A stretch of 46,732 bases of DNA from a virus, in IMG/VR virus record IMGVR_UViG_3300027771_001300, positions 1 to 46,732 of that record, one strand, 5' to 3'. Under the pieces are notes generated by a model that was not told where the DNA came from, did not search any database, and saw nothing but the letters and a program-made list of their open reading frames with translations. A program made the position numbers and the translations under genes. Shown one piece after another: positions 27,581 to 46,732 of the stretch (positions are counted from its first letter, which is position 1; each line of letters opens with the position of its first letter).

Positions 27581-27925
27581 ATGGATGATCGCTTACAGAA
27601 AGCATTAGACTTCTCTAATTATTCACTCACGATATCAAATCAAAAGAAAAACCTAAAGAACCGATTAAATCAAATGCTATTAGTACATCATAACAATGGT
27701 GTATTTGTTGCAGATCATACTACCATAAATTTTGTATCATATATGATGACACAACAACAAGGAATGTATATTCTAGACACAAAAGAAAATCCTATCCGTA
27801 TCCAAGACCTTCCTGCATTTTGTCAGAAATTGGAAGACGCATATGATACTGCTATGAGAGAATATTCAGAGGAATTTGATAAAATCAAAAAACTTCGTAA
27901 CCTTAATAAATTGCTGGAAGATTAA
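27581..27925 (+). CDS. Small coiled-coil protein, unknown function
   Basis: A 114-residue protein. It has a helical N-terminus, a middle segment with NGVFVADHTTINFVSYMM and LDTKENPIRIQDLPAFCQKL, and a charged C-terminal helix (EEFDKIKKLRNLNKLLED) suited to coiled coil. It looks like a small conserved protein of marine T4-like phages; I know no function. It has the window's best late promoter and ribosome-binding site, so high late expression is likely, as for a virion or assembly protein. It overlaps the next ATG by 1 nt. Confidence 0.6.
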   Translation: MDDRLQKALDFSNYSLTISNQKKNLKNRLNQMLLVHHNNGVFVADHTTINFVSYMMTQQQGMYILDTKENPIRIQDLPAFCQKLEDAYDTAMREYSEEFDKIKKLRNLNKLLED

Positions 27926-30572: not shown

Positions 30573-31548
30573 TATGGTAAGCGTGAATGATTTTGATATC
30601 ATTTACATAAGTTATGATGAACCAAACGCAGATGAAAACTTTGCAGACTTGTTAGACAAGTGTCCATGGGCACTACGTAGTCATGGTGTATGGGGAAGTG
30701 ATGCAGCACATAAAGCAGCAGCCGCATTATCTGACACAGATCGTTTCATCACAATAGATGCTGACAATATCGTAGACCCAAACTTCTTTAATGTTGAATT
30801 GGATATGGATAAGATAGGTAACACTGATGTTGTTAGTTGGGCTGGTAAGAATGAAATCAATGGTTTGATTTATGGCAATGGTGGAATTAAGTGTTGGCCC
30901 AAACCAGTTGTAGAACAGATGCGTACACATGAAGCAGCACCCGAAGGTGATAAGCGTGCACAGGTAGACTTCTGTTGGAACATCAATTATGTGCAAATGA
31001 ACAATGTATATTGTAATGTAATGAACAATGCAAGTCCTCTACAAGCATGGCGTGCAGGATTCCGTGAAGGTGTTAAGATGGGACTAGTTGATGGTGACAT
31101 AGTAGACCCATCAAAGTTGAAAGAATCAGTACATAAGAAAAACTATCAACGATTACTTACATGGATGTCTGTAGGTGAAGACTCACTGAATGGATTGTGG
31201 GCAGTCTATGGTGCACGATTAGGTTGTCATATGACCAATGTACTCAGAAAAGATTGGGATTGGAAAAATGTACGAGACTTTGATTGGTTGACTAATTATT
31301 TCAATGATGAGATTTTCCCACAGTTCGAAGGTGGTGATCAGTTGTGTTCGCGTACTGGTGGTAAGTGGGATCTAGATAAATTGAAAACCGAAACAATTAG
31401 ATTAGGTATTGAGTTACAGCGTGAATTGCAATTAGAAATAGCAGACTTAGACGTGAATGGTTCTAAGTTTTTCAAGACTGTTCAGATCAATCCTAGTCGG
31501 TTGGGTGCACAGATCAGAGAGGATCAAGTGACTGACACAATTGAATAA
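30565..31548 (+). CDS. GT2-like glycosyltransferase domain protein
   Basis: A 327-residue protein. SDTDRFITIDADNIVDPNFF (56-75) contains D-A-D (Asp65, Asp67), the metal site of GT-A enzymes. The first strand is FDIIYISYDEPNADENF, as in family-2-like phage glycosyltransferases, and GNGGIKCWPKPVV follows. The C-terminal half (about 155-327) has LQAWRAGFREGVKMGL and a GGDQLCSRTGGKW segment and does not look like a second glycosyltransferase domain. An ACAGGAG ribosome-binding site precedes ATG 30565. Its substrate is unknown. Confidence 0.6.
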   Translation: MTNMVSVNDFDIIYISYDEPNADENFADLLDKCPWALRSHGVWGSDAAHKAAAALSDTDRFITIDADNIVDPNFFNVELDMDKIGNTDVVSWAGKNEINGLIYGNGGIKCWPKPVVEQMRTHEAAPEGDKRAQVDFCWNINYVQMNNVYCNVMNNASPLQAWRAGFREGVKMGLVDGDIVDPSKLKESVHKKNYQRLLTWMSVGEDSLNGLWAVYGARLGCHMTNVLRKDWDWKNVRDFDWLTNYFNDEIFPQFEGGDQLCSRTGGKWDLDKLKTETIRLGIELQRELQLEIADLDVNGSKFFKTVQINPSRLGAQIREDQVTDTIE

Positions 31549-32224
31549 TCAATTCAATGATGATATAGTGCAGATGTGGTCCTCGCCTCATCAAGTTAAT
31601 GTAATATACTCGCCTGGTATGGGAGGGTATTTCTTTCACGATTTAGTTAGTGCAATTATAGGATTAATTAAATTTGAAGTAACTCCGTTGCCTAGCAACG
31701 AATATACTTATGCATTGAAAATGCATGACATTATAGAGCGTCATCATCCACATGATATATATGATATAGATACATTCAAAGGACGAGTTAATTTATTCAT
31801 AAATTCAAATGATATTAAGATGATATATTATGCTCGCGCCTTAAAAGAAATGAAAATAGCATATGAACAAGACACCCTTGATTCATTGCATGTACGATTT
31901 AATATTGACCTTGTACCTAATAAAATACGAACAGATGGAGATTATTATGAAGGCACCCTTTGTAATTCATATTACGAAACACTGTTATCTGATACGTCTA
32001 ATATTATAATGATGAATTATGAAAGTCTATTTTTAAAACAAGATGTTGATGTTATTAATCAATTATTAATTACGATTCGTGAATTTATAAAACAAGATAC
32101 ATTATCGGTAGTAGAAATTCAACAAATCATAAGACGGTATTCAGCGAGAAACTTTGAATTGCTTGCAAAGACTGATTTTGATTTTGACGAAATGGGATAC
32201 AGTGTGGATTACTTCAAGGAATAA
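31541..32224 (+). CDS. Possible P-loop (sulfotransferase-like) protein
   Basis: A 227-residue protein. VNVIYSPGMGGYFFHDLVSA (19-38) resembles the P-loop-like phosphosulfate-binding segment of sulfotransferase-fold proteins. The rest is helical, with a C-terminal RRYSARNFELLAKTDF. The frame has no ATG near the start: TTG 31541 overlaps the previous stop, and CTG 31532 lies 9 nt after a GAGAGG site (31517-31522). The first in-frame ATG is at 31571. The family call is weak; an unrelated Gly-rich loop is possible. Confidence 0.45.
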   Translation: MNNQFNDDIVQMWSSPHQVNVIYSPGMGGYFFHDLVSAIIGLIKFEVTPLPSNEYTYALKMHDIIERHHPHDIYDIDTFKGRVNLFINSNDIKMIYYARALKEMKIAYEQDTLDSLHVRFNIDLVPNKIRTDGDYYEGTLCNSYYETLLSDTSNIIMMNYESLFLKQDVDVINQLLITIREFIKQDTLSVVEIQQIIRRYSARNFELLAKTDFDFDEMGYSVDYFKE

Positions 32225-32975: not shown

Positions 32976-33824
32976 ATGAAACAATATTTACAATCGTTAC
33001 GTGACGTTGCTGAACAAGGCGAAGCACGTGATGATAGAACAGGCACAGGAACAATAAGTTTATTTGGTCATCAATCCAAATATAATCTACAAGATGGATT
33101 TCCAGCAGTGACTACAAAAAAGTTAGCATGGAAATCAGTCGTGAGCGAACTGTTATGGTTCCTTGAAGGATCAACAGATGAACGTAGACTTGCTGAGATA
33201 CTTTACGGCACATGGGATATTAACAAAAAAACAATCTGGACAGCGAATGCAGACAATCAAGGTGTAGCATTAGGTTATACTAATACAGATGATGTCAAAG
33301 AACTAGGACCTGTATATGGTAAGCAATGGGTAGATTTCGGTGGTGTAAATCAGATTGAATGGGCGATCAATGAGATCAAGACTAATCCTGACAGTAGACG
33401 TATTATAGTTTCAGCATGGAATCCACCTGAGATTGAAAAGATGGCGCTACCACCATGTCATACGTTGTTCCAATTTTATGTAATGAATGGTAAGTTGAGT
33501 TGTCAAATGTATCAGCGCAGTGCTGATATGTTTCTTGGTGTTCCATTTAATATAGCAAGTTATTCATTATTGATTCACATCATAGCAAACATTTGTGATT
33601 TAGAAGTGGGAACATTCGTACATACAATCGGTGATGCACATATATATCAAAACCATACTGAGCAAGTAGCCGAGCAATTGACACGAGCGCCGATGGAATC
33701 ACCGACACTAAATATCAGTAAGAACTTTGAATCATTGGGTGATGTATTAAAATCATCAGTAGATGATTATCAATTATTGGATTACAATCCGATGACGAGT
33801 ATAAAGGCACCAATGGCGGTATAA
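32976..33824 (+). CDS. thyA: Thymidylate synthase (ThyA)
   Basis: A 282-residue protein. The family motifs include DDRTGTGTISLFGHQ (19-33), WKSVVSELLWFLEGSTD, GPVYGKQWVDFG, DSRRIIVSAWNP, the catalytic Cys161 in LPPCHTLFQFYV, QRSADMFLGVPFNIASY and HIYQNHTEQ. It converts dUMP and methylene-tetrahydrofolate to dTMP, supplying phage DNA synthesis. All key residues are present. An AGGAA site precedes the ATG. The gene overlaps the next by 1 nt. Confidence 0.97.
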   Translation: MKQYLQSLRDVAEQGEARDDRTGTGTISLFGHQSKYNLQDGFPAVTTKKLAWKSVVSELLWFLEGSTDERRLAEILYGTWDINKKTIWTANADNQGVALGYTNTDDVKELGPVYGKQWVDFGGVNQIEWAINEIKTNPDSRRIIVSAWNPPEIEKMALPPCHTLFQFYVMNGKLSCQMYQRSADMFLGVPFNIASYSLLIHIIANICDLEVGTFVHTIGDAHIYQNHTEQVAEQLTRAPMESPTLNISKNFESLGDVLKSSVDDYQLLDYNPMTSIKAPMAV

Positions 33825-34573
33825 TGAAACAATCAAAAGTAGTAATTGTGACAGGTGGGTTTGACCCATTGCATAGCGGTCACGTTGCGTACTTCAAAGC
33901 AGCCAAGACACTTGGGAATATTCTTATCGTAGGATTAAATTCTGACGAATGGTTAGAACGTAAAAAGGGTAAAGCATTCATGGCATGGAATGAACGACTA
34001 TGTATAGTTAATAATTTATCTATGGTAGACGAAGTATTCACGTTCATGGATGATGACGATTCTGCTATAAACGTTATTAAGCAAGTCAAAGCACATTATC
34101 CGACAAGTGAAATTATTTTTGCGAACGGTGGTGACAGGACTATAACTAACATACCAGAAATGGAAATTGAAGGTATTGAGTTTGTATTCGGCGTAGGTGG
34201 TGAAGACAAAAAGAATAGTTCTAGTTGGATACTTGATGAGTGGAAAACACAGAAGACAGATCGCCAGTGGGGTTATTGGAGAGTGTTAGATGACAAGGGT
34301 ACTGTAAAGGTTAAAGAACTTGTTATCATGCCGGGAAAGAGTTTAAGTAATCAGCGTCATTTATTGCGTAACGAAACATGGCATGTTGTACAGGGTGAGT
34401 GTAAAATTCAATTTGACGATAATGGGATGACTACTCATGCAATAGTAGGTGGTATAACTGTTATACCTAAAATGGCATGGCACATGGCATATAACGATAC
34501 TGATGAACCATGTCATGTGATTGAAATACAATCTGGCGAAAAATGCATTGAAGAAGATATAGAGCGTAAATAA
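33824..34573 (+). CDS. Cytidylyltransferase-cupin fusion protein
   Basis: A 249-residue two-domain protein. The N-terminus (1-135) is an RfaE/TagD-like nucleotidyltransferase: VTGGFDPLHSGH (9-20; H17/H20), then ILIVGLNSDEWLERKKGKAF. The C-terminus (about 148-245) is a cupin like that of mannose-6-phosphate isomerase type II: WGYWRVLDDKGTVKVKELVI, PGKSLSNQRHLLRNETWHVV. One would activate a phosphorylated sugar as a CDP or ADP derivative, the other bind or isomerise a sugar phosphate. The joining of these domains is unusual to me. It lies between thyA and the radical SAM gene, with 1-nt overlaps. Confidence 0.75.
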   Translation: MKQSKVVIVTGGFDPLHSGHVAYFKAAKTLGNILIVGLNSDEWLERKKGKAFMAWNERLCIVNNLSMVDEVFTFMDDDDSAINVIKQVKAHYPTSEIIFANGGDRTITNIPEMEIEGIEFVFGVGGEDKKNSSSWILDEWKTQKTDRQWGYWRVLDDKGTVKVKELVIMPGKSLSNQRHLLRNETWHVVQGECKIQFDDNGMTTHAIVGGITVIPKMAWHMAYNDTDEPCHVIEIQSGEKCIEEDIERK

Positions 34574-36135
34574 TGAAGAAAAAAGCATCCGAGTACGAAT
34601 GGGATAGAAATTATAGTAACCATGTGATTAATTCATCTGATAATTTAAAAATTGTAGACGATATGCTTTCTGATAAAGGAAAAGGGTTTTGCTTGGCAAA
34701 ATTCAAGCAAGGTACAATACATTTAGGAACGGGTATGACGCATGCGTGTCACCACCCATCTCCACATAAAATACCATTAGTTGAAATAGAATCTAATCCC
34801 GCCTCATTATTTAACACTGAGCATCTTAAAACTGCACGAACAGAAATGCTCAATGATAAGAAACCATCAGAGTGTGACTATTGTTGGCGAGTAGAAGAAC
34901 GTGGTGGTCTTAGTGATCGCCATTCTAAAAGCATAGAACCTTGGGCATTGGAACATTTTGATGCGGTAACTGAATATAAAGGTGACGAGGATATATATCC
35001 TAGTTACCTAGAAGTTAGTTTCAGTAATGCATGTAATCTCAAATGCACATATTGCGGACCAGAATTCAGTAGTAAATGGGTCGAAGAATTAAAAACGAAC
35101 GGTCCTCTGAAAGTATTAGAAGGAGAATTAGATGAACAATGGGTACAAGGTTGGCAGGATCTAGATTCATTGCAATATAAAAATAGAGAGTTCAATCCTT
35201 ATATCGATGCCTTTTGGAAATGGTTCCCAGAGGCTTTTAAGCACTTGTCTCATTATCGCATAACGGGTGGTGAACCATTGCTTAGTAAAGAAACATTTAA
35301 AAGTATGGATTGGCTAATTGAAAATCCTAATCCTGAATTAGAATTCAGTGTTAACAGTAATTTTAGTGTACCAGAAAAAGTATGGCAACTGTTTGTAGGT
35401 AAACTAGAGAAACTAAAAACTGACAATAGAGTTAAGAAAATAACAATATACACAAGCGTAGAAGGATGGGAAGAAAGAGCAGAGTATGCACGAACTGGTT
35501 TAGATTTTAAATTATTCAAAAAGCGCACAGAGCAAATTGCTGCAATGGGTAATGTTAGATGTGTTGTCATGGCAGCATTTAATATATTCAGCGTTACCAG
35601 TTTCATGCCTCTTCTAGAATGGATACTAGAATTAAAAAAGTTACACAATCCAAGTGAGTCTATGCAAAAATTAGAAGTAACCAATTTTAAGGTACCTCCA
35701 GTTGGTGAATCAGCCGTTCATAGATCAGAAAAAAATCCTGATCAATCAATCGTTATTGGAATAGATATTCCATACTTGAGACATCCAGAATTACTAGATG
35801 TTCAATTTTGTTCACACGAATTGGTTGATGAATATTTATTGCCATTGATGAATTTTATGGCAGACAATATGACTTGTGATATATGGACAGAACACTCAGG
35901 CTTTGAAAAATACGAGATTGAAAAATTAAAAAGGATTGTAGTTAACCGATTGCACTTCAACCCTAAAAATGAAAAAGGTCCAGAACATCTAATAATACAT
36001 AGAGCAAAGTTTTATGATTATATTAAAGCGCATGATAGACGAAATGCTACATCATTTTTAAAAACATTCCCTGAGATGACAGCGCATTATAATCTATGTG
36101 AAGAAGCACATACATTATATCATAGTGATAAGTAA
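34573..36135 (+). CDS. Twitch-domain radical SAM protein
   Basis: A 520-residue protein. The core cluster motif is Cys154-x3-Cys158-x2-Cys161 in SNACNLKCTYCGPEFSSKW, followed by the SAM-binding YRITGGEPLLSKET (about 228-241). Upstream cysteines (Cys59; Cys101 and Cys104 in SECDYCWR) fit an extra metal site. This architecture, an N-terminal Cys-containing lead-in plus a radical SAM core, matches the twitch-containing radical SAM group found in many marine phages. Radical SAM enzymes start difficult reactions such as C-C bond formation or epimerisation. The substrate is unknown. The location in a sugar gene block suggests a sugar or virion substrate. Confidence 0.8.
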   Translation: MKKKASEYEWDRNYSNHVINSSDNLKIVDDMLSDKGKGFCLAKFKQGTIHLGTGMTHACHHPSPHKIPLVEIESNPASLFNTEHLKTARTEMLNDKKPSECDYCWRVEERGGLSDRHSKSIEPWALEHFDAVTEYKGDEDIYPSYLEVSFSNACNLKCTYCGPEFSSKWVEELKTNGPLKVLEGELDEQWVQGWQDLDSLQYKNREFNPYIDAFWKWFPEAFKHLSHYRITGGEPLLSKETFKSMDWLIENPNPELEFSVNSNFSVPEKVWQLFVGKLEKLKTDNRVKKITIYTSVEGWEERAEYARTGLDFKLFKKRTEQIAAMGNVRCVVMAAFNIFSVTSFMPLLEWILELKKLHNPSESMQKLEVTNFKVPPVGESAVHRSEKNPDQSIVIGIDIPYLRHPELLDVQFCSHELVDEYLLPLMNFMADNMTCDIWTEHSGFEKYEIEKLKRIVVNRLHFNPKNEKGPEHLIIHRAKFYDYIKAHDRRNATSFLKTFPEMTAHYNLCEEAHTLYHSDK

Positions 36136-36138
36136 AAA

Positions 36139-37443
36139 ATGAAAATAACATCATCTGATTGTAATAAAAAACTGTATATACTAAAACCTCCAATAGATGA
36201 CTGGCCTCAAATAGTCTTCAATAATGTTTTGCATAGTTTTAGGTTTATCACAAATGCGGTATCTATATCAACTCCGATTAAAAATTCACAGTCAACACAG
36301 ATATTATGGTTTCATAACACTGGTGACTATAGATCCCATCCATTTTGTAATATGTATGATGGAACTGTGCTAGATTCAATTCCATCAGATTGGTATGAAG
36401 ATATAAATGAAGGTCGCATTCACATCATAATTAATACATCAGAAGAAAGTTGGGGACCAGTATATGAAGGTAAGATAAATCATGTTGAGTCAGTAGACGT
36501 ACATCTAAACTTAGCAAATGCCGCGAACCGACTTGGGTTAAATCCAAAGTGCATAACATGGATTACAGGTGATCTCAATGCAGAAGCACATTGTGTCGAC
36601 AGTGAAATAAATGTAAAAAGTGTATGTTGGTTTAAGCATAGTTTTGTTAGAATGATTGCAGATGAAACAGATAGTCATATAACTAAATTTAAAAATAAAA
36701 ACAAAAACCCATCTAACTGGATGATATTTCTTAACAGGTGGCCCAAGGTACACCGTAGTTATGTAAGCGCAAGATTTTGGCAACTAGGCAAAGATGAACA
36801 ATATTGGAAAATTAATGACATGTTATGGAGTTTACCAAAAGATTTGCATGGAAAGAATGTGTGCAATGCATACTGTGATTTGAAATATAAAAAAGATACA
36901 TATGATGACACATTTGATAAAAAGAACTTAATTGATTGGGGTAAATTTAGAGATAGTTCATTAGATTTGTATTATCATCTACCATTCAAAGTAGATAATA
37001 TTAATAAAGATACAAATGATTGCGCTAGTATAGACGCAGTTGATAGTATACAGGAATTGTATCAATCTTCTAAGTTTAGTTTGATTAGCGAAACATGGGC
37101 AGAAGGAGGAAAAGCATTTATAAGCGAAGCAATATTCATGGCAATTGCGTTTGGTGTTCCATTTATAGTATTGGCAAATGCTGGAGTATTGAATAAGTTG
37201 AAAGAGTTTGGGTTTAAAACATATGATACAATATTTGATGAAAGTTATGATCTGATAGAAGATGACATTGAAAGATGGGAGGCGGTTATATCAGAAGTAG
37301 CACGTATAAGTAGATTATCAGATGATGATCATGTAGACATGCGTGATTCAGTTAATAACATCGTAGATTTTAATTACAACAAAATGTATGAAATCGCAGA
37401 CTTAGCAGAACTTGAATTTTATAATTGGTTAAATACATTATAG
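36139..37443 (+). CDS. Putative glycosyltransferase-like protein A
   Basis: A 434-residue protein whose C-terminal part (about 315-385) contains SLISETWAEGGKAFISEAIF, MAIAFGVPFIVLANAGVLNK, LKEFGFKTYDTIFDESYDLI and then R-W. This block (ET...F.SE, PFI, GF.TY, ESYD) recurs in the 439-aa protein at 39402-40721. In marine phages such proteins occur in sugar gene clusters and look like GT-B-like transferases, but I have no catalytic proof. The N-terminal half is unassigned. Only a weak ribosome-binding site precedes the ATG. Confidence 0.5.
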   Translation: MKITSSDCNKKLYILKPPIDDWPQIVFNNVLHSFRFITNAVSISTPIKNSQSTQILWFHNTGDYRSHPFCNMYDGTVLDSIPSDWYEDINEGRIHIIINTSEESWGPVYEGKINHVESVDVHLNLANAANRLGLNPKCITWITGDLNAEAHCVDSEINVKSVCWFKHSFVRMIADETDSHITKFKNKNKNPSNWMIFLNRWPKVHRSYVSARFWQLGKDEQYWKINDMLWSLPKDLHGKNVCNAYCDLKYKKDTYDDTFDKKNLIDWGKFRDSSLDLYYHLPFKVDNINKDTNDCASIDAVDSIQELYQSSKFSLISETWAEGGKAFISEAIFMAIAFGVPFIVLANAGVLNKLKEFGFKTYDTIFDESYDLIEDDIERWEAVISEVARISRLSDDDHVDMRDSVNNIVDFNYNKMYEIADLAELEFYNWLNTL

Positions 37444-37462
37444 AAAAAAAGGATTTAATATA

Positions 37463-38164
37463 ATGAAATTATTAGTTGCTGGTTGTAGTTTTAGTGATCG
37501 CACACACGTGATAAAATCATATGGAGACTACCTATCTGAAATCATGGGTGCAACATATATACACGAGGGCGCTGGTTGTGGTAGCAATGCTAGGATGTGG
37601 CGCGTAGTAACAAATGCTATCATGAATGGTTCACTTACAAGCAATGATCTATTGATTGTGCAATACACTCAAATAACTAGAAATGAATTTTGGACAACAT
37701 CAGAAGATCCATCACTATCACAAATACCAATCGTACCTAACAAAATACGAGCAATTAATCCTAGAGATTCATTTAGCGATGATGGTGATATATTACGCTA
37801 TAAACCTGGATCGCATGCATGGCAAAAAAATAAGAATGAAAGGGATTTTTTTAAAATGAAAGAAGAACACCATACATCTAATTTATTTTCATTTGAACAA
37901 AGTAAAATACAGAATTTTAATTTCCAACACATGTTAAAAATTAATAATATACCTGTTATCTTTTTGAAAGCATTGAATTATGGTTACGAGATACACAATG
38001 ATAACTATTTTGAATTTATTGAATATAGTTACACTGATCAAATGCTTGCAGAAAAAAATCATGATCTGACTGACAGTGATCCTTATCATGTCAATCAAAG
38101 AGGTCATGAGTTTATCGCAGACGAGTTATATAAAATATATACAAATAGTTTAGAGAAGATATAG
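37463..38164 (+). CDS. SGNH-hydrolase-like protein
   Basis: A 233-residue protein. Block I is LLVAGCSFSDRTH (3-15; Ser9 likely nucleophile), then EGAGCGSNARMWRVV (about 36-50, Gly/Asn oxyanion residues), and a C-terminal D-x-Y-H in SDPYHVNQRGHEFIADEL. This is the pattern of SGNH esterases, often deacetylases of sugars or acyl donors. It is a second such protein in the window; the other is at 10003-10659. It has an AAGGA ribosome-binding site (AAAAAAAGGA) and lies between glycan genes, so deacetylation of a glycan is plausible. Confidence 0.65.
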   Translation: MKLLVAGCSFSDRTHVIKSYGDYLSEIMGATYIHEGAGCGSNARMWRVVTNAIMNGSLTSNDLLIVQYTQITRNEFWTTSEDPSLSQIPIVPNKIRAINPRDSFSDDGDILRYKPGSHAWQKNKNERDFFKMKEEHHTSNLFSFEQSKIQNFNFQHMLKINNIPVIFLKALNYGYEIHNDNYFEFIEYSYTDQMLAEKNHDLTDSDPYHVNQRGHEFIADELYKIYTNSLEKI

Positions 38165-38168
38165 TTTT

Positions 38169-38176
38169 AATAAATA
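38169..38176 (+). promoter_or_regulatory. Late promoter AATAAATA
   Basis: A one-mismatch version of TATAAATA in the 36-nt gap before the dehydrogenase gene. The predicted start is near 38182, with an AGAGG ribosome-binding site between it and ATG 38201. It would begin the transcript of the nucleotide-sugar genes. Confidence 0.6.
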
Positions 38177-38200
38177 ATAATAAGTAGAGGACATCTGATA

Positions 38201-39424
38201 ATGAATATATGTTTCATCGGCACAGGAAAGCTAGGAATGCCATGTGCCGAATCAATAGCAAGAACAGGACATAACGTAACAGGGTATGATGTGATAGATC
38301 ACACTAGCACCCTTGTAAATATGCACCCCACAATATATAGCGCAGTGAAAGACAGTGACATAGTGTTTGTGGCTGTGCCGACACCACATGATTTAGATTA
38401 TGATGGTAGAACACCAACCGCACATCTAGAACCAAAAGACTTTGATTATGATATAGTAAAGAGTGTGCTAACAGAAGCAAACAATCATATGACAAAGGAT
38501 CAGTTGCTAGTTCTTATCAGTACGGTGTTGCCGGGAACGGTACGTAGGCAATTCGTTGATCTTATTCCGAATACTAGATTTATATATAACCCTTACTTGA
38601 TTGCTATGGGAAGTGTTGCATGGGATATGGTTAACCCTGAGATGGTTATGATTGGAACAGAAGACGGTAGTGAAACTGGTGACGCTAGTATGTTAGTTGA
38701 ATTTTATAAGACTATCATGGAAAATGATCCTCGCTATGAGATCGGTACTTGGGACGAATGTGAATGTATTAAAGTATTTTACAATACATTCATTAGTGCT
38801 AAAATAGGACTTGTTAATATGATACAAGATGTAGCACAAAAGCAAGGAAACATTAATGTAGACGTTGTGACTGATGCGCTTGCAGCAAGTACTATGCGTA
38901 TCATGGGACCGCAATATATGAAAGCAGGTATGGGTGATGGTGGTGGTTGTCATCCTCGTGACAATATCGCACTTCGTTATATGGCAGAAGAATTAAATTT
39001 AGGTTATGATTTGTTTGACAGTATAATGGGAGCGAGAGAAATACAAGCGAAAAATATTGCGTTAGAATTAGTAAAACATTCCATACAAAATGGTATGCAG
39101 ATTGTCATACATGGCAAAGCATACAAGCCACACGTGGAGTATTGTGATGGTAGTTATAGTTTGCTAATTGGACATTACTGTAAAGCAGCAGGACATGACG
39201 TAATCTACGTAGACCCGTTAACTGGTGATGATTATTCTCCTACTGAACCTTGTGTGTTCTTATTAGCACATAGTGCGAGTACTACCTACAAATATATCAG
39301 TTCTACTAACGAAGATACAATGTATTGCAGTATACCTATGGGAAGTATTGTGATTGATCCTTGGCGTTCGTATGTTAATAATGATTGCCAAGTAATACAC
39401 TATGGCAATACTAGAAATGTATAA
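38201..39424 (+). CDS. UDP-glucose/GDP-mannose 6-dehydrogenase
   Basis: A 407-residue protein with the nucleotide-sugar dehydrogenase layout. There is an N-terminal NAD Rossmann fold (CFIGTGKLGMP, 4-14), VFVAVPTPHDLD, the STVLPGT segment and the catalytic cysteine region GDGGGCHPRD (Cys250), then a C-terminal domain (HGKAYKPHVEYCDGS...) that binds the sugar nucleotide. It oxidises a hexose 6-OH to a carboxylate to give a uronic acid donor. The length is near the usual 390-440. It is the first gene after the late promoter at 38169. A second, shorter dehydrogenase follows at 42077. Whether the substrate is UDP-glucose or another sugar is open. Confidence 0.85.
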   Translation: MNICFIGTGKLGMPCAESIARTGHNVTGYDVIDHTSTLVNMHPTIYSAVKDSDIVFVAVPTPHDLDYDGRTPTAHLEPKDFDYDIVKSVLTEANNHMTKDQLLVLISTVLPGTVRRQFVDLIPNTRFIYNPYLIAMGSVAWDMVNPEMVMIGTEDGSETGDASMLVEFYKTIMENDPRYEIGTWDECECIKVFYNTFISAKIGLVNMIQDVAQKQGNINVDVVTDALAASTMRIMGPQYMKAGMGDGGGCHPRDNIALRYMAEELNLGYDLFDSIMGAREIQAKNIALELVKHSIQNGMQIVIHGKAYKPHVEYCDGSYSLLIGHYCKAAGHDVIYVDPLTGDDYSPTEPCVFLLAHSASTTYKYISSTNEDTMYCSIPMGSIVIDPWRSYVNNDCQVIHYGNTRNV

Positions 39425-40721
39425 TGATAAATTTATAATATTGGGAAATGATTCTGCTGACCAAGATTACATTCGTCTAGGCATACCAGACTCATACCAC
39501 AGTGGCATGACCCATTGGCAACAACAAGAATTTGAAATAAAGTTCAATGAAAAAAATATATTTGAAATTAAAGAAATTAACAATATACCGCTTGGTAGCA
39601 AATATATTATATACTGTTCTGTATATAGTCATTTAATTAATTTAATACGACCTGGCGATGACACCAAATACAAATACGATTTTGTAAATCACGTGGGTGG
39701 CTCATGTGGTAATATTGCGGTAGAGTGTATTCTACCAGAAAGGATTTTAAAAGACTCATTAGATGGGAATGTTTTATGGATAATAAACCATGACACCGAA
39801 TCAGAAATAGCAACATTATTTCATTACGACATTCTATATAAATCATTGGGTTGTAGTAGACACCCTGATAATATTGTATTACTTACTGGTGCTTCGTTGG
39901 ACTATATGTATGAAGATCAATCTCTAATGGATATAACAAGAATACAATTTAATAGTTTGCTTACTTTTTTAAAAATAGGCAATACTGATAATTTTATCGC
40001 AAACAAATTAAATGATATTAATAATAAAAAGATTGTAAAATACAAGAGTTTATGTTATAATAGAGTTCCTAAGAAACATCGTATGATAATTTTATCTCAT
40101 ATGCTACAGCGAGAATACATAACTGATTGTATTCATAGCCTGGGTTTGACGATCTATGGTGAAATATCAAGATTATTCATATCAGATGAACCTAGTAAAT
40201 ATGGATACTTACAAGAATCATTTAATAAAATATGTGATCTAAATGAAAATATTGTCGCAGTAATGGAAGAAGATATTGATCTAACTATAAACCATGCTGG
40301 TACCATGAATTATACACACCCACTGAATTCTAGTTTCCATGTAGTCACTGAATCTTGCACTACCGATTACACGTTCATAACTGAAAAATCGTACAAGCCA
40401 TTTGTAATGATGCAACCATTCATACAATTCGGTAGCGTAAACAATATTCAACAATTGCGACAAATGGGATTTAGAGTATTTGACAAATGGATAAACCATA
40501 GTTACGATGGAATACGAGATGATCATGGCAGAATGCAAAGATTCCTAATTGAACTGGATAGATTACATGGCATTGATCATGAAGAATGGGCGAATATGCT
40601 ATATGATATGAGAGAAGATTTATATTTTAATTTTAATTTAATAAACAAAATGAGACTAGATAATCCACCACTGCGATTAATTACAATATTATACGATTTT
40701 GCAAATGAGAACTATACATGA
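39402..40721 (+). CDS. Putative glycosyltransferase-like protein B
   Basis: A 439-residue paralogue of the protein at 36139-37443. The shared block is VTESCTTDYTFITEKSYKPF, then MMQPFIQFGSVNNIQQLRQM, GFRVFDKWINHSYDGI and D-x-x-G-R-M, giving the pattern TE...FITEK, PFI, GF..FD, SYD. Here the second half keeps the FITEK signature that protein A lacks (it has FISEA). The ATG at 39402 overlaps the dehydrogenase gene by 23 nt; an alternative ATG is at 39417. The function is inferred from pattern and context only. Confidence 0.5.
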   Translation: MAILEMYNDKFIILGNDSADQDYIRLGIPDSYHSGMTHWQQQEFEIKFNEKNIFEIKEINNIPLGSKYIIYCSVYSHLINLIRPGDDTKYKYDFVNHVGGSCGNIAVECILPERILKDSLDGNVLWIINHDTESEIATLFHYDILYKSLGCSRHPDNIVLLTGASLDYMYEDQSLMDITRIQFNSLLTFLKIGNTDNFIANKLNDINNKKIVKYKSLCYNRVPKKHRMIILSHMLQREYITDCIHSLGLTIYGEISRLFISDEPSKYGYLQESFNKICDLNENIVAVMEEDIDLTINHAGTMNYTHPLNSSFHVVTESCTTDYTFITEKSYKPFVMMQPFIQFGSVNNIQQLRQMGFRVFDKWINHSYDGIRDDHGRMQRFLIELDRLHGIDHEEWANMLYDMREDLYFNFNLINKMRLDNPPLRLITILYDFANENYT

Positions 40722-41563
40722 TTTTAATAACTGGTGCTAACGGATTTATAGGAAAGCGACTACGCGATTACGTAGACTGTGTTACAGTTGATTACAATAA
40801 CTGTGACTACAATGGAGACTTAACTGACATGAACTTTGTTAATAGTTTACCCGATGTTGACACTGTCATACACTTAGCAGCATTCAATAGCACAAAGAAC
40901 TTTTACAGCACACCGTTTAGTGTCATTGATAGTATCGTGACTCCAACTATGAACTTACTCAAGCGTTATCCAACTGCTCACTTCGTGTATGCAAGTAGCA
41001 GCGAAGGATATGCTAGCACAGTAAATCAAGGTTGGGCATCTGTACCAACACCAGAAAATGTTGCTCTCACAATAGAAGACATTACTAATCCACGATGGTG
41101 CTATGCTAGTGGCAAGATTGCAATGGAAAGCGCAGTCATCAGTAACAGCATAGAGAACAAAGGTACTTATACTATAATACGTTTTCATAATATTTACGGT
41201 CCCGGACAATTGAATCACTTTATACCTGAGTTTATAGATAGATTAAATAATGGCGACAATGTATTGTATGGTCATAGTGACACAAGAAGTTTTTGCTACA
41301 TAGACGATGCATGTGAACTTATTAAGAGAGTACATCAAACTGAGAATGAAATAATTAATATTGGGTCAGACACAGAAACAACTATACTAGATGTAGCACA
41401 TCAGATAATGCACCTAATGAATATAGATACATCAACACTGAAAATTGAAGACGGACAAGTAGGTAGCACACCTCGCAGAGCCGCAGACATTACCAAATTA
41501 CAAACCCTAGTACCTAAATTTAAATACACTACCCTGTCAGAAGGATTATCAAAATGCTTGTAA
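40718..41563 (+). CDS. NAD-dependent epimerase/dehydratase (SDR)
   Basis: A 281-residue extended SDR. There is a glycine-rich NAD motif ITGANGFIGKRL (4-15), the HLAA segment (52-55), a Ser-rich YASSSEGYAS strand, the catalytic Tyr129-x3-Lys133 (YASGK), and RFHNIYGPG. The C-terminal part (SFCYIDDACELIKR, INIGSD) is typical of sugar epimerases or dehydratases. It acts on a nucleotide-activated sugar. It overlaps the preceding gene by 4 nt and the redoxin gene by 10 nt. The exact reaction (4-epimerase or 4,6-dehydratase) cannot be told from sequence alone. Confidence 0.8.
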   Translation: MILITGANGFIGKRLRDYVDCVTVDYNNCDYNGDLTDMNFVNSLPDVDTVIHLAAFNSTKNFYSTPFSVIDSIVTPTMNLLKRYPTAHFVYASSSEGYASTVNQGWASVPTPENVALTIEDITNPRWCYASGKIAMESAVISNSIENKGTYTIIRFHNIYGPGQLNHFIPEFIDRLNNGDNVLYGHSDTRSFCYIDDACELIKRVHQTENEIINIGSDTETTILDVAHQIMHLMNIDTSTLKIEDGQVGSTPRRAADITKLQTLVPKFKYTTLSEGLSKCL

Positions 41564-42075
41564 CAAGTGATAGCATGATTGGAACTAGACCAACACAATT
41601 AATTATACCTAACAAGGTTAACCTAGTAATGATAATTTGCAATCATTGTCCTTATGTATTGTTTAGAATGGACGCTATCAGTCAGTTAGTTAAAGATTAC
41701 AGAGACACAGTTAGAATTGTAGCAGTGAACAGCAATGACCCAAGTCCAGACACAGATGATAGCAGTCCAGAAGACTCGGTAGAGTTTATGCCAGCATTTG
41801 TAGAACGATGGGATCTAGGGTGCGCATACGTACATGACAACGATCAAAGCATTGCACGAGAGTATGGTGCAGTGTGTACTCCTGAATTTTATGTGGTTGA
41901 CACCAATGGTATAATTGTTTATCATGGCGAACTAGATCCCAGTCATACCTCAAATAAATTAATGCCAACTGGTAGTAGTGTTAGGCATGCATTAGATTTA
42001 ACCTTGGTTGATAAACCAATTAATTGGGAACCTATACCAAGTTTCGGATGTAGTGTGAAATGGAAAAAAGATTGA
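41554..42075 (+). CDS. Thioredoxin-fold redoxin
   Basis: A 173-residue protein with a redox C-x-x-C (Cys29, Cys32; MIICNHCPYV) at the start of helix 1, as in AhpC/TSA-like thioredoxin-fold proteins. VRIVAVNSNDP follows, then AVCTPEFYVVDTNGIIVYHG with the cis-Pro, and a C-terminal PSFGCSVKWKKD that is a hallmark of this redoxin group. It would reduce or oxidise disulfides or act as a peroxidase. An AAGGA site lies before the ATG inside the SDR gene. Its place amid sugar enzymes is unexplained. Confidence 0.8.
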   Translation: MLVTSDSMIGTRPTQLIIPNKVNLVMIICNHCPYVLFRMDAISQLVKDYRDTVRIVAVNSNDPSPDTDDSSPEDSVEFMPAFVERWDLGCAYVHDNDQSIAREYGAVCTPEFYVVDTNGIIVYHGELDPSHTSNKLMPTGSSVRHALDLTLVDKPINWEPIPSFGCSVKWKKD

Positions 42076-42076
42076 T

Positions 42077-42871
42077 ATGAATATAGGTATCATAGGTAGC
42101 AACGGGATTGTAGGCGCAGCATTGAATGCAGGCTTTACTCGTCTTGGATTCACAGTGACTTGTCACGATACTATCATGGATACCCGACTAGAAGATGTGG
42201 TAACAACTGAGATAGTATACATATGTGTTCCCACCCCATCTAATGAAGATGGTAGTTGTAACACAAGTATAGTAGAATCAGTAGTAGACGAATTGTATGA
42301 ATTAGAATACAAAGGTGTCATTGCAATTAAAAGCACGATAGAACCAGGAACTACACAACGACTAATAACCAAGCATAATGATCAGATAGTTTTTGTTCCT
42401 GAATTTCTAAAAGAACGTAGTGCAGAATATGATTTCGTTTTTAATCATCGGTTGTTATTGGTTGGCACTAATAATGTTAATCACTATTATCTAGTGCAAT
42501 GCACACATGGCAATTATCCTCAAGACTCTATGAGAGTAACACCAGTTGAAGCAGAGATGATGAAATATTATTGGAATACATTTAATGCAACACGTATAAC
42601 ATTTGCCAATGTATTCTATGAAATATGCCAATCAACTGGGGCAGAATACGATAGAGTAAAAGAAGCATTTATACGATGCAGTGATATGCCAGATGAATAC
42701 TTAGATGTAAAACCAGAGTTACGTGGTTACGGTGGTGCATGTTTGCCAAAAGATGTAACTGCGACACAGCAATTATGTGACCAACATAAACTACCTTTAA
42801 GTTTTTTTAAAAGTGTAGATGAAACAAATGCCCTATTCCAAGTCACCGTGTTTAAAGGTATGAGAAAATAA
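42077..42871 (+). CDS. Short UDP-sugar dehydrogenase, C-terminal domain absent
   Basis: A 264-residue protein with the N-terminal NAD domain (MNIGIIGSNGIVG, 1-13), ICVPTPSNEDGS, STIEPGT, the central helix and the catalytic-cysteine region RGYGGACLPKDVTA (Cys222). Family members are about 390-440 residues with a C-terminal sugar-nucleotide domain; here the frame stops soon after the Cys region. It may act with a partner domain, with a smaller substrate, or as a remnant. It differs from the full-length enzyme at 38201, so it is not a simple recent duplicate. It abuts the isochorismatase-like gene with a 1-nt overlap. Confidence 0.75.
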   Translation: MNIGIIGSNGIVGAALNAGFTRLGFTVTCHDTIMDTRLEDVVTTEIVYICVPTPSNEDGSCNTSIVESVVDELYELEYKGVIAIKSTIEPGTTQRLITKHNDQIVFVPEFLKERSAEYDFVFNHRLLLVGTNNVNHYYLVQCTHGNYPQDSMRVTPVEAEMMKYYWNTFNATRITFANVFYEICQSTGAEYDRVKEAFIRCSDMPDEYLDVKPELRGYGGACLPKDVTATQQLCDQHKLPLSFFKSVDETNALFQVTVFKGMRK

Positions 42872-43413
42872 TGACACATTGCATAAATGGATATCTAACA
42901 GATAACCATATAGAATATCTACTTGAACCTACCAAGACATCAATGGTAATCAGTGATATAACACAATTAGGATATTGGGACAACGTAGAATTCGATAAAC
43001 ATATAACCCAATGCTTAGTAGCGTTTACTAATATAATAAATGATAACCCTGCTATAATAACTTGCATGCAATCATCTCGTGTAATATTCAGTAGTCTTGG
43101 TCCCATACACCCCGAACTTGATTCATTATTGAAAGAGAATGACGTATCATATGAAATAGTATCACCTAATCATATTAATTATGGAAGTTCATACGCACCA
43201 CCAAGAAACATACTTGTGTGGGGTATACATGCAGACTTATGTATTCTTGATCATAGTATGGCGATAACTAGATACAGTAACATAACTCGCGCTATTATTT
43301 TAGAAGATGCAACACAATCATTGCGTCTTGATAGACACGATGGTATGCTTTTATTATCACGACATTTGCCCAACATAGATGTAGTATCAAAGAACGCGAG
43401 GTTCGTAATATGA
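42871..43413 (+). CDS. Isochorismatase-like cysteine hydrolase, divergent
   Basis: A 180-residue protein. The C-terminal core VWGIHADLCILDHSMAITR (116-134) and AIILEDATQSL resemble the isochorismatase fold, with Cys124 as the likely nucleophile and a possible first Asp at 29 (SDI). The expected lysine of the D-K-C triad is not clear (an arginine sits near that point, SSRVIF). Such enzymes hydrolyse amides or vinyl ethers. It lies between a dehydrogenase and a sugar cupin; a role in the same pathway is inferred only from position. It overlaps the next gene by 4 nt. Confidence 0.5.
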   Translation: MTHCINGYLTDNHIEYLLEPTKTSMVISDITQLGYWDNVEFDKHITQCLVAFTNIINDNPAIITCMQSSRVIFSSLGPIHPELDSLLKENDVSYEIVSPNHINYGSSYAPPRNILVWGIHADLCILDHSMAITRYSNITRAIILEDATQSLRLDRHDGMLLLSRHLPNIDVVSKNARFVI

Positions 43414-43790
43414 AAAATGTAACCGTAATGAAACCAGATGTGTTCACAGATCATAGAGGCACTATTCGAAGTTTCTTCCCTGATGAAAACATTGTTGAAT
43501 ACAATCTAATGATCACCAAGAAAGGTGATGAGCGAGGCTATCATTTTCACCCACACTTCATTGAATATATGCTAGTAGTAGAAGGAGTTGGTAAGTTCAG
43601 AGAATATGGTGATGAGGTGCATGAAGTATTATTGCATGTAGGTGATAGTATTAGAATACCTAAAGATACTGCACATACATTCATTGCATTGACTGACTTC
43701 AAGTTTGTCAGTATGCTCACAAAACGATGGAACGATAGTAACCCCCCAATAATAAAGGTAGATGAAAATGGAAATGAAATTACATCTTAA
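43410..43790 (+). CDS. Cupin, dTDP-sugar isomerase/epimerase-like
   Basis: A 126-residue cupin. The segment FTDHRGTIRSFF (12-23) matches sugar-epimerase cupins. The double-stranded beta-helix has GYHFHPHFIEYMLVVEG (43-59, His45, His47, His49 and Glu52), GDSIRIPKDTAHTF. This resembles the WxcM/FdtA group that isomerises dTDP-4-keto-sugars, or RmlC-like 3,5-epimerases. It lacks the extra C-terminus of full RmlC. A DegT aminotransferase two genes away would fit a 3-keto-sugar made by this enzyme. Confidence 0.7.
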   Translation: MKNVTVMKPDVFTDHRGTIRSFFPDENIVEYNLMITKKGDERGYHFHPHFIEYMLVVEGVGKFREYGDEVHEVLLHVGDSIRIPKDTAHTFIALTDFKFVSMLTKRWNDSNPPIIKVDENGNEITS

Positions 43791-44586
43791 CTCTAGCAAC
43801 ACAATAATAATACAATTAGTTGATAGTCATTTGATTCATCAGTGGGTTAGAGAATTCTGCTCACATGAACTAGAAGAAACAGAAACAATTATGTCATTTC
43901 AGAATAGACTACATACATTTGATAAAACTAAATTTGATTATCTATATGAAAAATTGCAAAATGGTATAGCAGCATACAATGGTCCCGTGTATAACACTGG
44001 AGATAAACAACACATATTAAATAAATTACATCATTGGTGTGTTGAATATGTGAATTCCATACACGACAGTCCTGACAGAAGTCAAATGTATCACACCAAC
44101 GTCAGTAATCTAAATATCCTAAACGATCTTTGTCATCAATGCGAATCAACATTGGCAGACGGTAATAGAATATTACCAACTACATGTAGCAATCCAATAT
44201 GGGATCAACAACTATTACCAGCAAAGTATATACCATTAACTAACGAATGGTTGGATTTATTAACAACCAACAAGTATGATGTTTATATCGCCAAGCGACT
44301 ATTAGGAAAAGATTATCGTGAAGCATATAGAGACAACGATGACCCAACATATAATGAGGTGCAAGCATTTGGTGATCAAGTCCCACTTGCATTTGAATTT
44401 GATCCTATCAACTGTTGGAATGATTTATACAATAGTAAATCGTTTATAGATTTCTTACCAGTTGATAATACACATACGAACTTAGGAAGAATACCAATTG
44501 GTAATATCGTTAACGATATTGATAACATACATAATTTAATACAACACGATAGAATAGACAAAGTGACATACAATGAATCCATTTAA
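43768..44586 (+). CDS. Unknown phage protein in sugar block
   Basis: A 272-residue protein that I do not recognise. The frame is open from ATG 43762, but an AAAGG site at 43754-43758 is 9 nt before ATG 43768, so I chose that. Visible blocks are MEMKLHLNSSNTII, HLIHQWVREFCSHE, DVYIAKRLLGKDYREAYRDN (about 181-200) and DDPTYNEVQAFGDQVPLAFE. The KRLLGKDYREAY phrase resembles conserved uncharacterised phage proteins. No catalytic motif is clear. It overlaps the next gene by 14 nt and the previous by 23 nt. Confidence 0.55.
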   Translation: MEMKLHLNSSNTIIIQLVDSHLIHQWVREFCSHELEETETIMSFQNRLHTFDKTKFDYLYEKLQNGIAAYNGPVYNTGDKQHILNKLHHWCVEYVNSIHDSPDRSQMYHTNVSNLNILNDLCHQCESTLADGNRILPTTCSNPIWDQQLLPAKYIPLTNEWLDLLTTNKYDVYIAKRLLGKDYREAYRDNDDPTYNEVQAFGDQVPLAFEFDPINCWNDLYNSKSFIDFLPVDNTHTNLGRIPIGNIVNDIDNIHNLIQHDRIDKVTYNESI

Positions 44587-45178
44587 TTACGTAACCGAAT
44601 TTGAAAAACAAATAGCAACATACACTGGTGCGAAATATGCAATAGCAACTGACTGTTGCACACACGCATTGTTTCTTAGTTTGTATTACTATAAGCAACA
44701 GAACAATATAACCAATGTTGTGTTACCAAATAATACCTATGTCAGTGTGGCAATGCAATGTAAGCATTTAGGATTAGATGTAGATTTTGTTGACAAAGAA
44801 TGGATAGGGTGTTATACTATAGAGAACACAAATGTAGTTGATGCTGCACCAAGGTTACATCGTGGGCAATATGAACATGGTACAAGTACCTGCATCAGTT
44901 TTCAGTTTAAGAAAATACTTAGCACAACACGCGGAGGTATGATTCTCACGGACGATTTAGACTTCTACCATTGGGCGCAACGCGCTACTCATGATGGACG
45001 AGATATGAATATTCCATATGAACAAGATAACATTACATTTATTGGGTGGCATTATTTTATGACACCAGAGATTGCACAAGTCGGATTAGCAAAGTTACAA
45101 ATACTACCAGACTACAATGAAGATTGTGCTGGCAGTCATACTTATCCTGACATAAGTTACACAAAGGGATTAATATGA
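44573..45178 (+). CDS. Half-length DegT/DnrJ/EryC1-type aminotransferase
   Basis: A 201-residue protein with the N-terminal and PLP core of sugar aminotransferases: an FEKQIATYTGAKYAIATDCC start, THALFLSLYYY, LPNNTYVSVAMQCKHLGL, VVDAAPRLH (Asp90 for the PLP nitrogen), and CISFQFKKILSTTRGGMILT, where Lys114 is the expected Schiff-base lysine by alignment to the family spacing. Usual members are about 370-400 aa; the C-terminal small domain is absent and the frame ends cleanly at 45178. It may be a compact working enzyme or dead. It would transfer an amino group to a keto-sugar. Confidence 0.75.
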   Translation: MNPFNYVTEFEKQIATYTGAKYAIATDCCTHALFLSLYYYKQQNNITNVVLPNNTYVSVAMQCKHLGLDVDFVDKEWIGCYTIENTNVVDAAPRLHRGQYEHGTSTCISFQFKKILSTTRGGMILTDDLDFYHWAQRATHDGRDMNIPYEQDNITFIGWHYFMTPEIAQVGLAKLQILPDYNEDCAGSHTYPDISYTKGLI

Positions 45179-46368
45179 GACAAGTAAAAAAAGTAACAGA
45201 GTGTCGTAGTTGCGGCACAGATAACATGGACACCGTGTTTGATATAGGTGAACTAAAAATAAATGCTTTTACTGTAGAACCAAATACAGATGTAGGAAGC
45301 GCACCACTCACATTGGTACATTGCACCGAATGTGATTTAATTCAATTAGATCACACAGTACGTGAGCAAGAACTGTATGAGAACTATTGGTACTTGTCAC
45401 GTCTAAATCAAAAGATTGTTGATAACCTTCACAGTATTGTAGATGACATTAGTAGCGAAGTGGGATTAGGTAAAGGCGACATCGTACTTGATATTGGTGC
45501 TAACGATGGAACACTGCTTAGTAAATATGACAGCAAAGAAGTTGTGCGTGTTGGGTGTGATCCTGCAAAGAATATTCACCTTGAACTAGTAAAGCATACA
45601 GATATTATGATAGGTGATTTTTTCAACTATGATAACTGGGTAAGTCGTGTAGGTAACAAGACAGCACGTGCTATCACAACGGTTGCTATGTTCTATGACT
45701 TAGATGACCCAAATAGTTTCGTAGCAGATATAAAGAAAGTATTAGCGAATGATGGTGTATGGTTATGTCAGTTAATGACAGCAGCACCTATGCTTAATAG
45801 CAATGACTTAGGCAATGTGATACATGAACATATAGAGTATTATAGTTTCAAGAGCCTTGTCATATTAATGGAACGTCACGGATTAGAAATATATAAAGTT
45901 CTAGAGAATGATATTAATGGCGGTAGTTACCAGTTGTATATTAGACATTACTCAAGTGGCAGTATTGAATATGCAGAAGATATTACACCAGAACGTATCT
46001 CACAATGGGCTGATGATATTGCAAAGAATCGTGATGATACTGTAGAGTTTTTGCGGGATGTAGTTGCTGATGGTAAGAAAGTTTATATCATGGGCGCAAG
46101 TACAAAAGGCAATACCATAATGCAATACTATGGATTAGACAGTAAATTAATATCTGGTGCAGCAGAAATACATCCTGATAAAATTGGAAAATATCTAGTA
46201 GGAAGTAGCATACCTATTGTTCACGAAGATGATGCAAAGAACGATGCTGATTATTTCCTAGTGTTTCCATTCCACTTCAAAGACTTATTCGTTAATCGTA
46301 TTATGAAAGATTGGATCTCACAAGGAGGAAAGTTAATATTTTGTACACCAACGTTTGAAGTAATATAA
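45175..46368 (+). CDS. TylCIII-type sugar C-methyltransferase
   Basis: A 397-residue protein with the three-part layout of NDP-hexose C-methyltransferases. There is an N-terminal zinc-binding part (Cys10, Cys13; Cys50, Cys53), a SAM Rossmann fold with DIVLDIGANDGTLLS (102-116), and a C-terminal domain with VYIMGASTKGNTIMQYYGL and HPDKIGKYLVGSSIPIVHED. Such enzymes put a methyl group on C-3 of a keto-sugar, giving branched sugars. All visible motifs are intact. It overlaps the aminotransferase gene by 4 nt, so both likely serve one pathway. Confidence 0.85.
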   Translation: MRQVKKVTECRSCGTDNMDTVFDIGELKINAFTVEPNTDVGSAPLTLVHCTECDLIQLDHTVREQELYENYWYLSRLNQKIVDNLHSIVDDISSEVGLGKGDIVLDIGANDGTLLSKYDSKEVVRVGCDPAKNIHLELVKHTDIMIGDFFNYDNWVSRVGNKTARAITTVAMFYDLDDPNSFVADIKKVLANDGVWLCQLMTAAPMLNSNDLGNVIHEHIEYYSFKSLVILMERHGLEIYKVLENDINGGSYQLYIRHYSSGSIEYAEDITPERISQWADDIAKNRDDTVEFLRDVVADGKKVYIMGASTKGNTIMQYYGLDSKLISGAAEIHPDKIGKYLVGSSIPIVHEDDAKNDADYFLVFPFHFKDLFVNRIMKDWISQGGKLIFCTPTFEVI

Positions 46369-46371
46369 ATA
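46364..46371 (+). promoter_or_regulatory. Perfect late promoter TATAAATA, leaderless HAD fragment
   Basis: An exact late core overlaps the stop of the methyltransferase gene (TAA 46366-46368). By T4 geometry the start would be at 46377, the A of the next ATG. It is the second case here in which five bases separate TAAATA from ATG. Confidence 0.7.
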
Positions 46372-46376
46372 ATATC

Positions 46377-46490
46377 ATGTCCATATTAATCATATTTGAC
46401 TTTGACGGAACACTCATTGACTGTAAAGAATTACACCAATCTGGATTCAATCAAGCAGATACCATACAATACATTAAGACGTTACTATAA
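46377..46490 (+). pseudogene. HAD-phosphatase N-terminal fragment
   Basis: A 37-residue reading frame begins MSILIIFDFDGTLIDCKELH, which is motif I (DxDGT, Asp8 and Asp10) of HAD hydrolases. After about 27 residues it diverges and stops at 46488-46490. HAD phosphatases are about 200 residues, so motifs II to IV are missing. It is most likely the remnant of a sugar-phosphate phosphatase, perhaps cut by a deletion, or a short peptide of unknown use. A perfect late promoter still precedes it. Confidence 0.6.
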
Positions 46491-46501
46491 CTGGATATAT
46501 T

Positions 46502-46732
46502 ATGAAACTAATAATGCCAATGGCGGGACTAGGCAGCCGCTTTGAAGAACAAATTAAACCATTAATCAATGTCAATGGCGTACCTATGTTCGTTAATAGC
46601 GAGAGATGCCTAAAGATGCAATTCGATGAATATATCTTCATCACTCGTATAGAACATAATCTAAAAGAAATAATACATCAGTACTACCCACATGCTCATG
46701 TAATCGAAATAGACTATACCACCGAAGGCACC
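46502..46732 (+). CDS. Sugar nucleotidyltransferase, partial
   Basis: The first 77 residues of a protein that runs off the window. MKLIMPMAGLGSRFEEQIKP with LINVNGVPMFV matches the N-terminus of RmlA/GlmU-like nucleotidyltransferases (a G-x-G-x-R loop with G9, G11, R13, then K19-P20). Such enzymes make NDP-sugars from a sugar 1-phosphate. The ATG follows the HAD fragment by 11 nt, with no clear ribosome-binding site. It would supply the activated sugar for the genes to the left. Confidence 0.75.
   Translation, partial: MKLIMPMAGLGSRFEEQIKPLINVNGVPMFVNSERCLKMQFDEYIFITRIEHNLKEIIHQYYPHAHVIEIDYTTEGT

Follow-up and report, generated by a model that had tools for sequence, protein, structure and literature searches.

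Do the sugar genes that lie beside the tail genes of a T4-like phage form one pathway, and what would that pathway make? The locus in question spans positions 33824-46732 of a 46,732-base IMG/VR virus fragment, the whole of which we call the window. An earlier note on this DNA had read the locus as one compact block of nucleotide-sugar and radical SAM genes, possibly an undescribed pathway to a branched, aminated or carboxylated sugar. Every open reading frame (ORF) it named is there, all on the + strand and all between 33824 and the end of the window, and family scans support most of the gene assignments. The ORFs are tightly packed, with 14 of 15 junctions falling between -29 and +36 bases and the remaining gap, of 133 bases, preceding the last gene; counts of sigma-70-like promoters and terminators were no higher than chance. 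The stretch is two units, modules A and B, not a single pathway block. On balance, we favor the reading that module B (40718-46368) is a phage-borne nucleotide-sugar cassette for a 3-C-methylated amino nucleotide-sugar, destined for a host-envelope or virion glycan.

Six core genes of module B

The core genes of module B are as follows.

40718-41563, + strand: core gene 1, short-chain dehydrogenase/reductase (SDR) of the Epimerase family (PF01370, 1.8e-28)
41554-42075, + strand: core gene 2, redoxin (AhpC/TSA) with a CNHCPY motif (PF00578, 8.2e-10)
42077-42871, + strand: core gene 3, short UDP-glucose/GDP-mannose dehydrogenase-like protein (UGDH2) of 264 amino acids (aa) (PF03721 and PF00984)
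43410-43790, + strand: core gene 4, small cupin, candidate sugar ketoisomerase/epimerase (PF07883, Cupin_2, 1.1e-10; conserved in 12 relatives)
44573-45178, + strand: core gene 5, compact DegT-type aminotransferase of 201 aa (PF01041, 2.5e-20)
45175-46368, + strand: core gene 6, predicted sugar 3-C-methyltransferase (CMT; PF08421, PF13489, and PF08484, i.e., Methyltransf_13/23/14, all above cut-offs)

Among solved structures, CMT is nearest to D-mycarose 3-C-methyltransferase (4rv9, 4.2e-45), with TcaB9 also close, and it shares the three-domain architecture and key residues of TylC3/TcaB9/KijD1-type deoxysugar 3-C-methyltransferases. Its Zn-binding Cys4 set (C10, C13, C50, and C53), S-adenosylmethionine motif (DIGANDGTLL), and HEH are invariant. 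Because the nearest solved relative is a 3-C-methyltransferase, CMT probably methylates C3 of a nucleoside diphosphate (NDP)-4-keto sugar. Its gene partners are unlike those of the antibiotic deoxysugar clusters, and no 4,6-dehydratase could be assigned with certainty in the window.

The predicted structure of the DegT protein (predicted local distance difference test score [pLDDT], 79) matches only the large domain of GDP-perosamine synthase (3dr4, E 1.3e-8). With GDP-perosamine synthase and ArnB-type aminotransferases it shares the large-domain fold and the pyridoxal phosphate-lysine region, to which K113/K114 align (K114 being both aligned and invariant). Unlike those enzymes, it lacks one internal segment and the C-terminal small domain, which leaves it at 201 aa against a family norm of ~370 aa. 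Close carriers all have a DegT of 201 to 204 aa, and K113/K114 are among the many columns that do not vary. UGDH2 has the NAD-binding and central domains with the catalytic Cys, whose stretch, GGACLPKD, is invariant, and is 263 to 264 aa long in relatives. A C-terminal nucleotide-sugar-binding domain was not matched; the protein stops at position 301 of 413 in the TIGR03026 profile.

The SDR is nearest in structure to UDP-glucuronic acid decarboxylase (4lk3, 3.9e-13). Residues E96, Y129, and K133 are invariant in 12 relatives, and the Ser-Glu/Tyr/Lys motif is kept. This motif is common to UDP-glucuronate decarboxylases, GDP-mannose dehydratases, and some epimerases. The redoxin matches 2ywi (1.3e-42), with C29, C32, C90, and C108 invariant, and a search of 50,697 phage records returned nothing for it. 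Against the RmlC models, the small cupin scored 26.7 for PF00908 (cut-off, 27) and 20.7 for TIGR01221 (cut-off, 155.75).

Module B is under strong purifying selection: the ratio of nonsynonymous to synonymous rates (dN/dS) was ~0.04 to 0.11 where it could be estimated, with synonymous sites near saturation. The earlier note had remarked that several enzymes are shortened. DegT and UGDH2 are indeed short, and their low dN/dS and invariant catalytic residues identify them as conserved compact forms rather than products of decay. Their sizes (201 and 264 aa against ~370 and >400) and missing domains could also fit binding or regulatory remnants that no longer catalyze. We find this distinctly unlikely, given the invariant catalytic residues, dN/dS of ~0.05 to 0.1, and the wide distribution of compact DegT proteins of similar length in viruses, where 229 stretches matched the family.

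Co-occurrence and exchange of the six genes

A scan with CMT found 20 viral contigs in which SDR, redoxin, short UGDH, cupin, compact DegT, and CMT recur. Alignments of redoxin, UGDH2, and DegT were scanned separately, so that the loci were not picked by one gene. All six core genes were present in 24 of the 24 viral contigs found with redoxin, and the DegT, UGDH2, and CMT scans converged on the same contigs. Two further contigs, both cut at the contig end, hold cupin, DegT, and CMT; apart from these, no partial sets were seen among carriers in closely related phages. Carrier and relative genomes are fragments, and many carrier contigs are near-duplicates; grouping by similarity leaves ~17 distinct carriers in addition to the window. 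The same six genes come in two orders, the one in L014-L017 being cupin, DegT, CMT, redoxin, UGDH2, and SDR. The six genes are an obligate set in these phages. The earlier note had considered that its proposal would fall if the genes lay scattered in relatives with no conserved set, which is not what the 24 contigs show; synthesis of a branched, aminated sugar is well supported for the SDR-to-CMT part.

Where a carrier contig extends as far as the capsid or baseplate genes, the phage is T4-like. Of the 20 CMT contigs, 13 encode Gp23, and gp6 is 34 to 85% identical to that of the window in 17 of the 20 contigs tested. The window itself has, 5' of the sugar stretch, T4-like genes for Rad50/Mre11-like recombination proteins (gp46/gp47 type) and the gp25 baseplate wedge, together with a gp6-like baseplate wedge protein and a 3404-aa structural protein. 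Module B lies in a hypervariable stretch downstream of baseplate and tail genes; CMT is ~28 to 31 kb downstream of gp6 in most carriers, whereas in G020 it is inverted, at a distance of ~22 kb.

We then compared gene trees, drawing the groups for the tests from the gp47 tree, in which the window, G001, and G002 fall together (94 to 98% mutual identity). The UGDH2 of G001 is 63% identical to that of the window and 81 to 87% identical to those of G005, G006, G016, G020, and G033. On the UGDH2 tree, grouping of the window with G001 and G002 was rejected (approximately unbiased test, p-AU 9e-6), as was the corresponding gp47 clade on the DegT tree (p-AU 2e-7). These conflicts with the gp47 tree indicate that related T4-like phages have traded cassette genes with one another. 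Individual genes change hands without loss of any of the six, which is what selection for the full set would be expected to produce. In three contigs, an apparent in-frame TGA in gp47 proved to be just the terminal stop.

The relatedness of the carriers, seen in gp6, would suit passenger or host-derived surface-polysaccharide genes that serve no single dedicated product and co-occur through shared carrier ancestry only. Sub-pairs found elsewhere (SDR with short UGDH in L273-L287 and SDR with CMT in L290-L298) would suit it too. We judge this explanation unlikely, as the set is complete in every one of the 24 contigs despite strong turnover of surrounding genes and altered gene order, and the conflict between cassette trees and the core tree makes simple shared descent insufficient to explain co-occurrence.

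In the collection of genome contigs, one scan found one bacterial metagenome-assembled genome (MAG), at 39%. In the phylum of that MAG, CMT relatives occur in 20 of 192 genomes, with a GDP-mannose-dehydratase-like gene close by in 4 of 8 examined. The six-gene set was not seen in those bacterial MAGs, within the short flanks examined. Bacterial MAGs with CMT relatives are a possible cellular source of the cassette. CMT relatives near GDP-mannose-4,6-dehydratase-like genes were observed in L102 (1255-11320), L257, and L261-L263, and L102 also holds a phage-type SDR and a 286-aa short UGDH.

Proposed product and acceptor

In the pathway we propose, a nucleotidyltransferase (the gene at 46502 or the fusion at 33824) would activate a sugar phosphate, and the dehydrogenase and SDR would oxidize the activated sugar to a keto sugar. 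The cupin might then shift or epimerize the keto group, DegT would aminate the keto sugar, and CMT would add a C-methyl branch, probably at C3. Glycosyltransferase (GT)-like proteins could pass the sugar to a host envelope glycan or a virion protein. The likely benefit would be altered phage-cell recognition, either as a block to superinfection or as shielding of the virion.

The enzymes nearest to DegT act on GDP- or UDP-4-keto sugars, and CMT relatives adjoin GDP-mannose 4,6-dehydratase in Synechococcus phage DSL-LC02 and in bacterial MAGs. Together with the nearest relatives of CMT, the SDR motif, and the pairs of SDR with short UGDH, this makes a 3-C-methyl amino sugar on a GDP or UDP carrier the most likely product, judged from sequence relationships. 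Several points weigh against our proposal. Product, substrate, and acceptor are predictions from sequence. UGDH2 lacks its C-terminal domain and DegT its small domain, and with these parts of their families missing, it is doubtful what substrates they use and whether they are active at all. For the SDR, dehydratase, decarboxylase, and epimerase activities are all possible; neither GT-like protein matched a glycosyltransferase family, and the redoxin fits no obvious step of such a pathway. In a bolder and more tentative form of the proposal, the six genes would be the full recipe for an undescribed nucleotide sugar, with a domain-reduced aminotransferase and dehydrogenase and a thiol-redox partner (possibly for a sulfur or redox step), evolved in aquatic phages as an exchangeable surface-coat module.

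The neighborhood, and the published reading of similar regions, favor an envelope glycan as the likely acceptor, with the virion a serious alternative. Pelagimyophages and cyanomyophages have a host recognition cluster (HRC), a hypervariable region near baseplate and tail genes with glycosyltransferases, rfaE-like genes, UDP-glucose dehydrogenase, and added radical SAM cassettes (PMC7029224). Decoration of tail fibers or capsid instead of the host envelope is possible, though it is not the outcome we expect. The cassette adjoins tail genes and travels with a tail-proximal module in every carrier in which this could be assessed, and virion glycosylation in mycobacteriophages is reported in the work of Freeman 2023, as PMC12619734 cites it. 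On the other side, interpretations in print of the similar pelagimyophage cluster lean toward modification of the host O-chain (PMC7029224), and nothing in the sequence names the acceptor.

Phage DNA, which the earlier note had listed among the targets, is very improbable as the site of the sugar, in the form of a hypermodified base. Phage glycosyltransferases can modify DNA, as is generally known and also cited in PMC12619734. The ThyA of the window, however, reads GVPFNIASYS, with Asn. Asn marks a dUMP-specific thymidylate synthase, whereas Asp marks a dCMP hydroxymethylase. This Asn, and the fact that no base hydroxylase or base-modifying enzyme was seen in the window, argue against DNA. 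The inserts near the cassette are also glycan-decoration enzymes: TylF and FkbM methyltransferases lie among the module B genes of relatives, with a carbamoyltransferase farther on, and these count toward the sugar reading. A B12-binding radical SAM protein likewise occurs farther on.

The surface genes in phage glycan clusters are commonly regarded as loose assemblages, and an obligate, exchanged six-gene set is by comparison a defined, testable pathway. It also brings two domain-reduced enzyme families within reach of biochemical study, and the module probably alters how these phages and their hosts recognize each other.

Module A, a tail-proximal unit

Module A combines an hldE-like nucleotidyltransferase-cupin fusion, a twitch-domain radical SAM protein, and a GT-like protein, and is part of a tail-proximal phage region.

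27925-33824, + strand: upstream part, with proteins without known family, DHFR, and ThyA (same order in L018/L021, partly in L022-L074)
33824-34573, + strand: HldE-C-like cytidylyltransferase fused to a MannoseP_isomer (MPI-type) cupin (PF01467 and PF01050; phrog_7878, 2.6e-28)
34573-36135, + strand: twitch-domain radical SAM protein (NF033640, 297 bits; cut-off, 170)
36139-37443, + strand: GT-like paralogue a, same family as 39402-40721

A radical SAM scan found 99 relatives among viral contigs, 80 of which were retained. Tail-proximal proteins, radical SAM, and the GT-like family recur there, and radical SAM genes are often present as several tandem copies. Most of these relatives lack the DegT/CMT/redoxin/cupin set, so that module A stands in dozens of viral contigs without the sugar genes. 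In L018/L021, modules A and B are oppositely oriented. Because the modules are separate in relatives and divergent in these two, 33824-46732 is not one unit, and we rejected the whole 13-kb stretch as a single pathway; what had been taken for one compact block includes a separate tail-proximal module holding the radical SAM and GT-like genes.

The tail-proximal proteins without known family (window 27925-32224, L018, L022-L074, and L265) keep their order across dozens of phages. Two of them, at 29598 and 30565, are a paralogous pair, and 30565-31548 is up to 93% identical in relatives. In L062, L065, L087, L099, and L101, 8 to 10 divergent radical SAM genes stand in tandem within ~20 kb of phage contig.

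Accessory and partner genes

The remaining genes lie between the modules, among the core genes, or at the window end.

37463-38164, + strand: SGNH-like hydrolase (DUF6071, 22 bits, below the cut-off of 27)
38201-39424, + strand: UGDH-like dehydrogenase (UGDH1) of 407 aa, mobile partner gene (PF03721 and PF00984; phrog_9148, 5.8e-99)
39402-40721, + strand: GT-like paralogue b, same family as 36139-37443
42871-43413, + strand: isochorismatase-like accessory protein, variable insert (motif only; relatives in L003-5, L018, L019, and L021)
43762-44586, + strand: conserved 274-aa protein between cupin and DegT, of a family paralogous in carriers (32 members in 22 loci)
46502-46732, + strand: sugar nucleotidyltransferase, cut by the window end (full-length relative, L003:14582-15271)

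The two proteins previously called glycosyltransferase-like paralogues are paralogous to each other, but neither matched a Pfam glycosyltransferase family or a solved structure, so glycosyltransferase identity is not confirmed. A member of this family lies directly 5' of module B in most carriers. The SGNH esterase assignment came down to the weak DUF6071 match, and the isochorismatase-like one to motifs: that protein had no library match, and a scan with the protein itself gave no relatives. We rejected the isochorismatase-like gene as a core enzyme, since it is found in few carriers. The full-length relative of the nucleotidyltransferase is a 230-aa NTP_transferase that is 92% identical to the gene at 46502 and matches PF12804/PF00483.

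The ORF at 43762-44586 had been overlooked. A PDB fold search with its AlphaFold2 model (pLDDT, 88.5) gave no significant match; the N- and C-terminal strands of the model point weakly to a cyclophilin-like fold. Up to three family members occur per phage stretch (L002, L003, L006, L009, L012, L014, L017, L019, L067, and L068), with an LGK...D-D/N-P type motif.

Relation to known phage clusters

The claim of an undescribed pathway holds for the exact gene set; the general kind of cluster is already known from pelagimyophages (PMC7029224) and cultured cyanophages. Neither the papers nor the isolate records searched contained the six-gene set, and a literature search found nothing on a phage C-methyl-sugar pathway. 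The HRC and the window have in common variable glycan and radical SAM genes beside T4-like phage tail genes. The HRC lies between VrlC and gp14 in SAR11 phage, whereas the window contig breaks off inside its cluster, and the words aminotransferase and methyltransferase are absent from the main text of that paper (PMC7029224). The carriers of the window's set belong to a T4-like lineage other than the HRC phages; by gp6, their nearest isolates are PA5oct-like phages (38%).

Single genes have relatives in isolates. UGDH1 is 60% identical to a protein of Synechococcus phage Bellamy and 49% to one of Pelagibacter phage HTVC008M. DSL-LC02 has a CMT relative (30%) beside GDP-mannose dehydratase and GDP-fucose synthase. 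Related glycan clusters are present in the cultured phages Bellamy, HTVC008M, DSL-LC02, Synechococcus phage S-SCSM2R, and Flavobacterium phage immuto, and the six-gene set occurs in none of their compared stretches. Cell-wall synthesis genes have been reported in S-SCSM1 (PMC9602691).

Compact DegT proteins outside the cassette were seen in L133-L187, L103, and L104, among them those of S-SCSM2R (195 aa; 43% identical to that of the window) and immuto (214 aa; 37%). In other viral contigs (L273-L287), an SDR stands directly beside a short UGDH, several with an hldE-cupin fusion nearby, as a smaller sub-module of the same kind. Virion structural proteins of Salicola phage SCTP-2 and of PA5oct-like phages distantly resemble (25 to 28%) the 3404-aa structural protein of the window (14804-25018).

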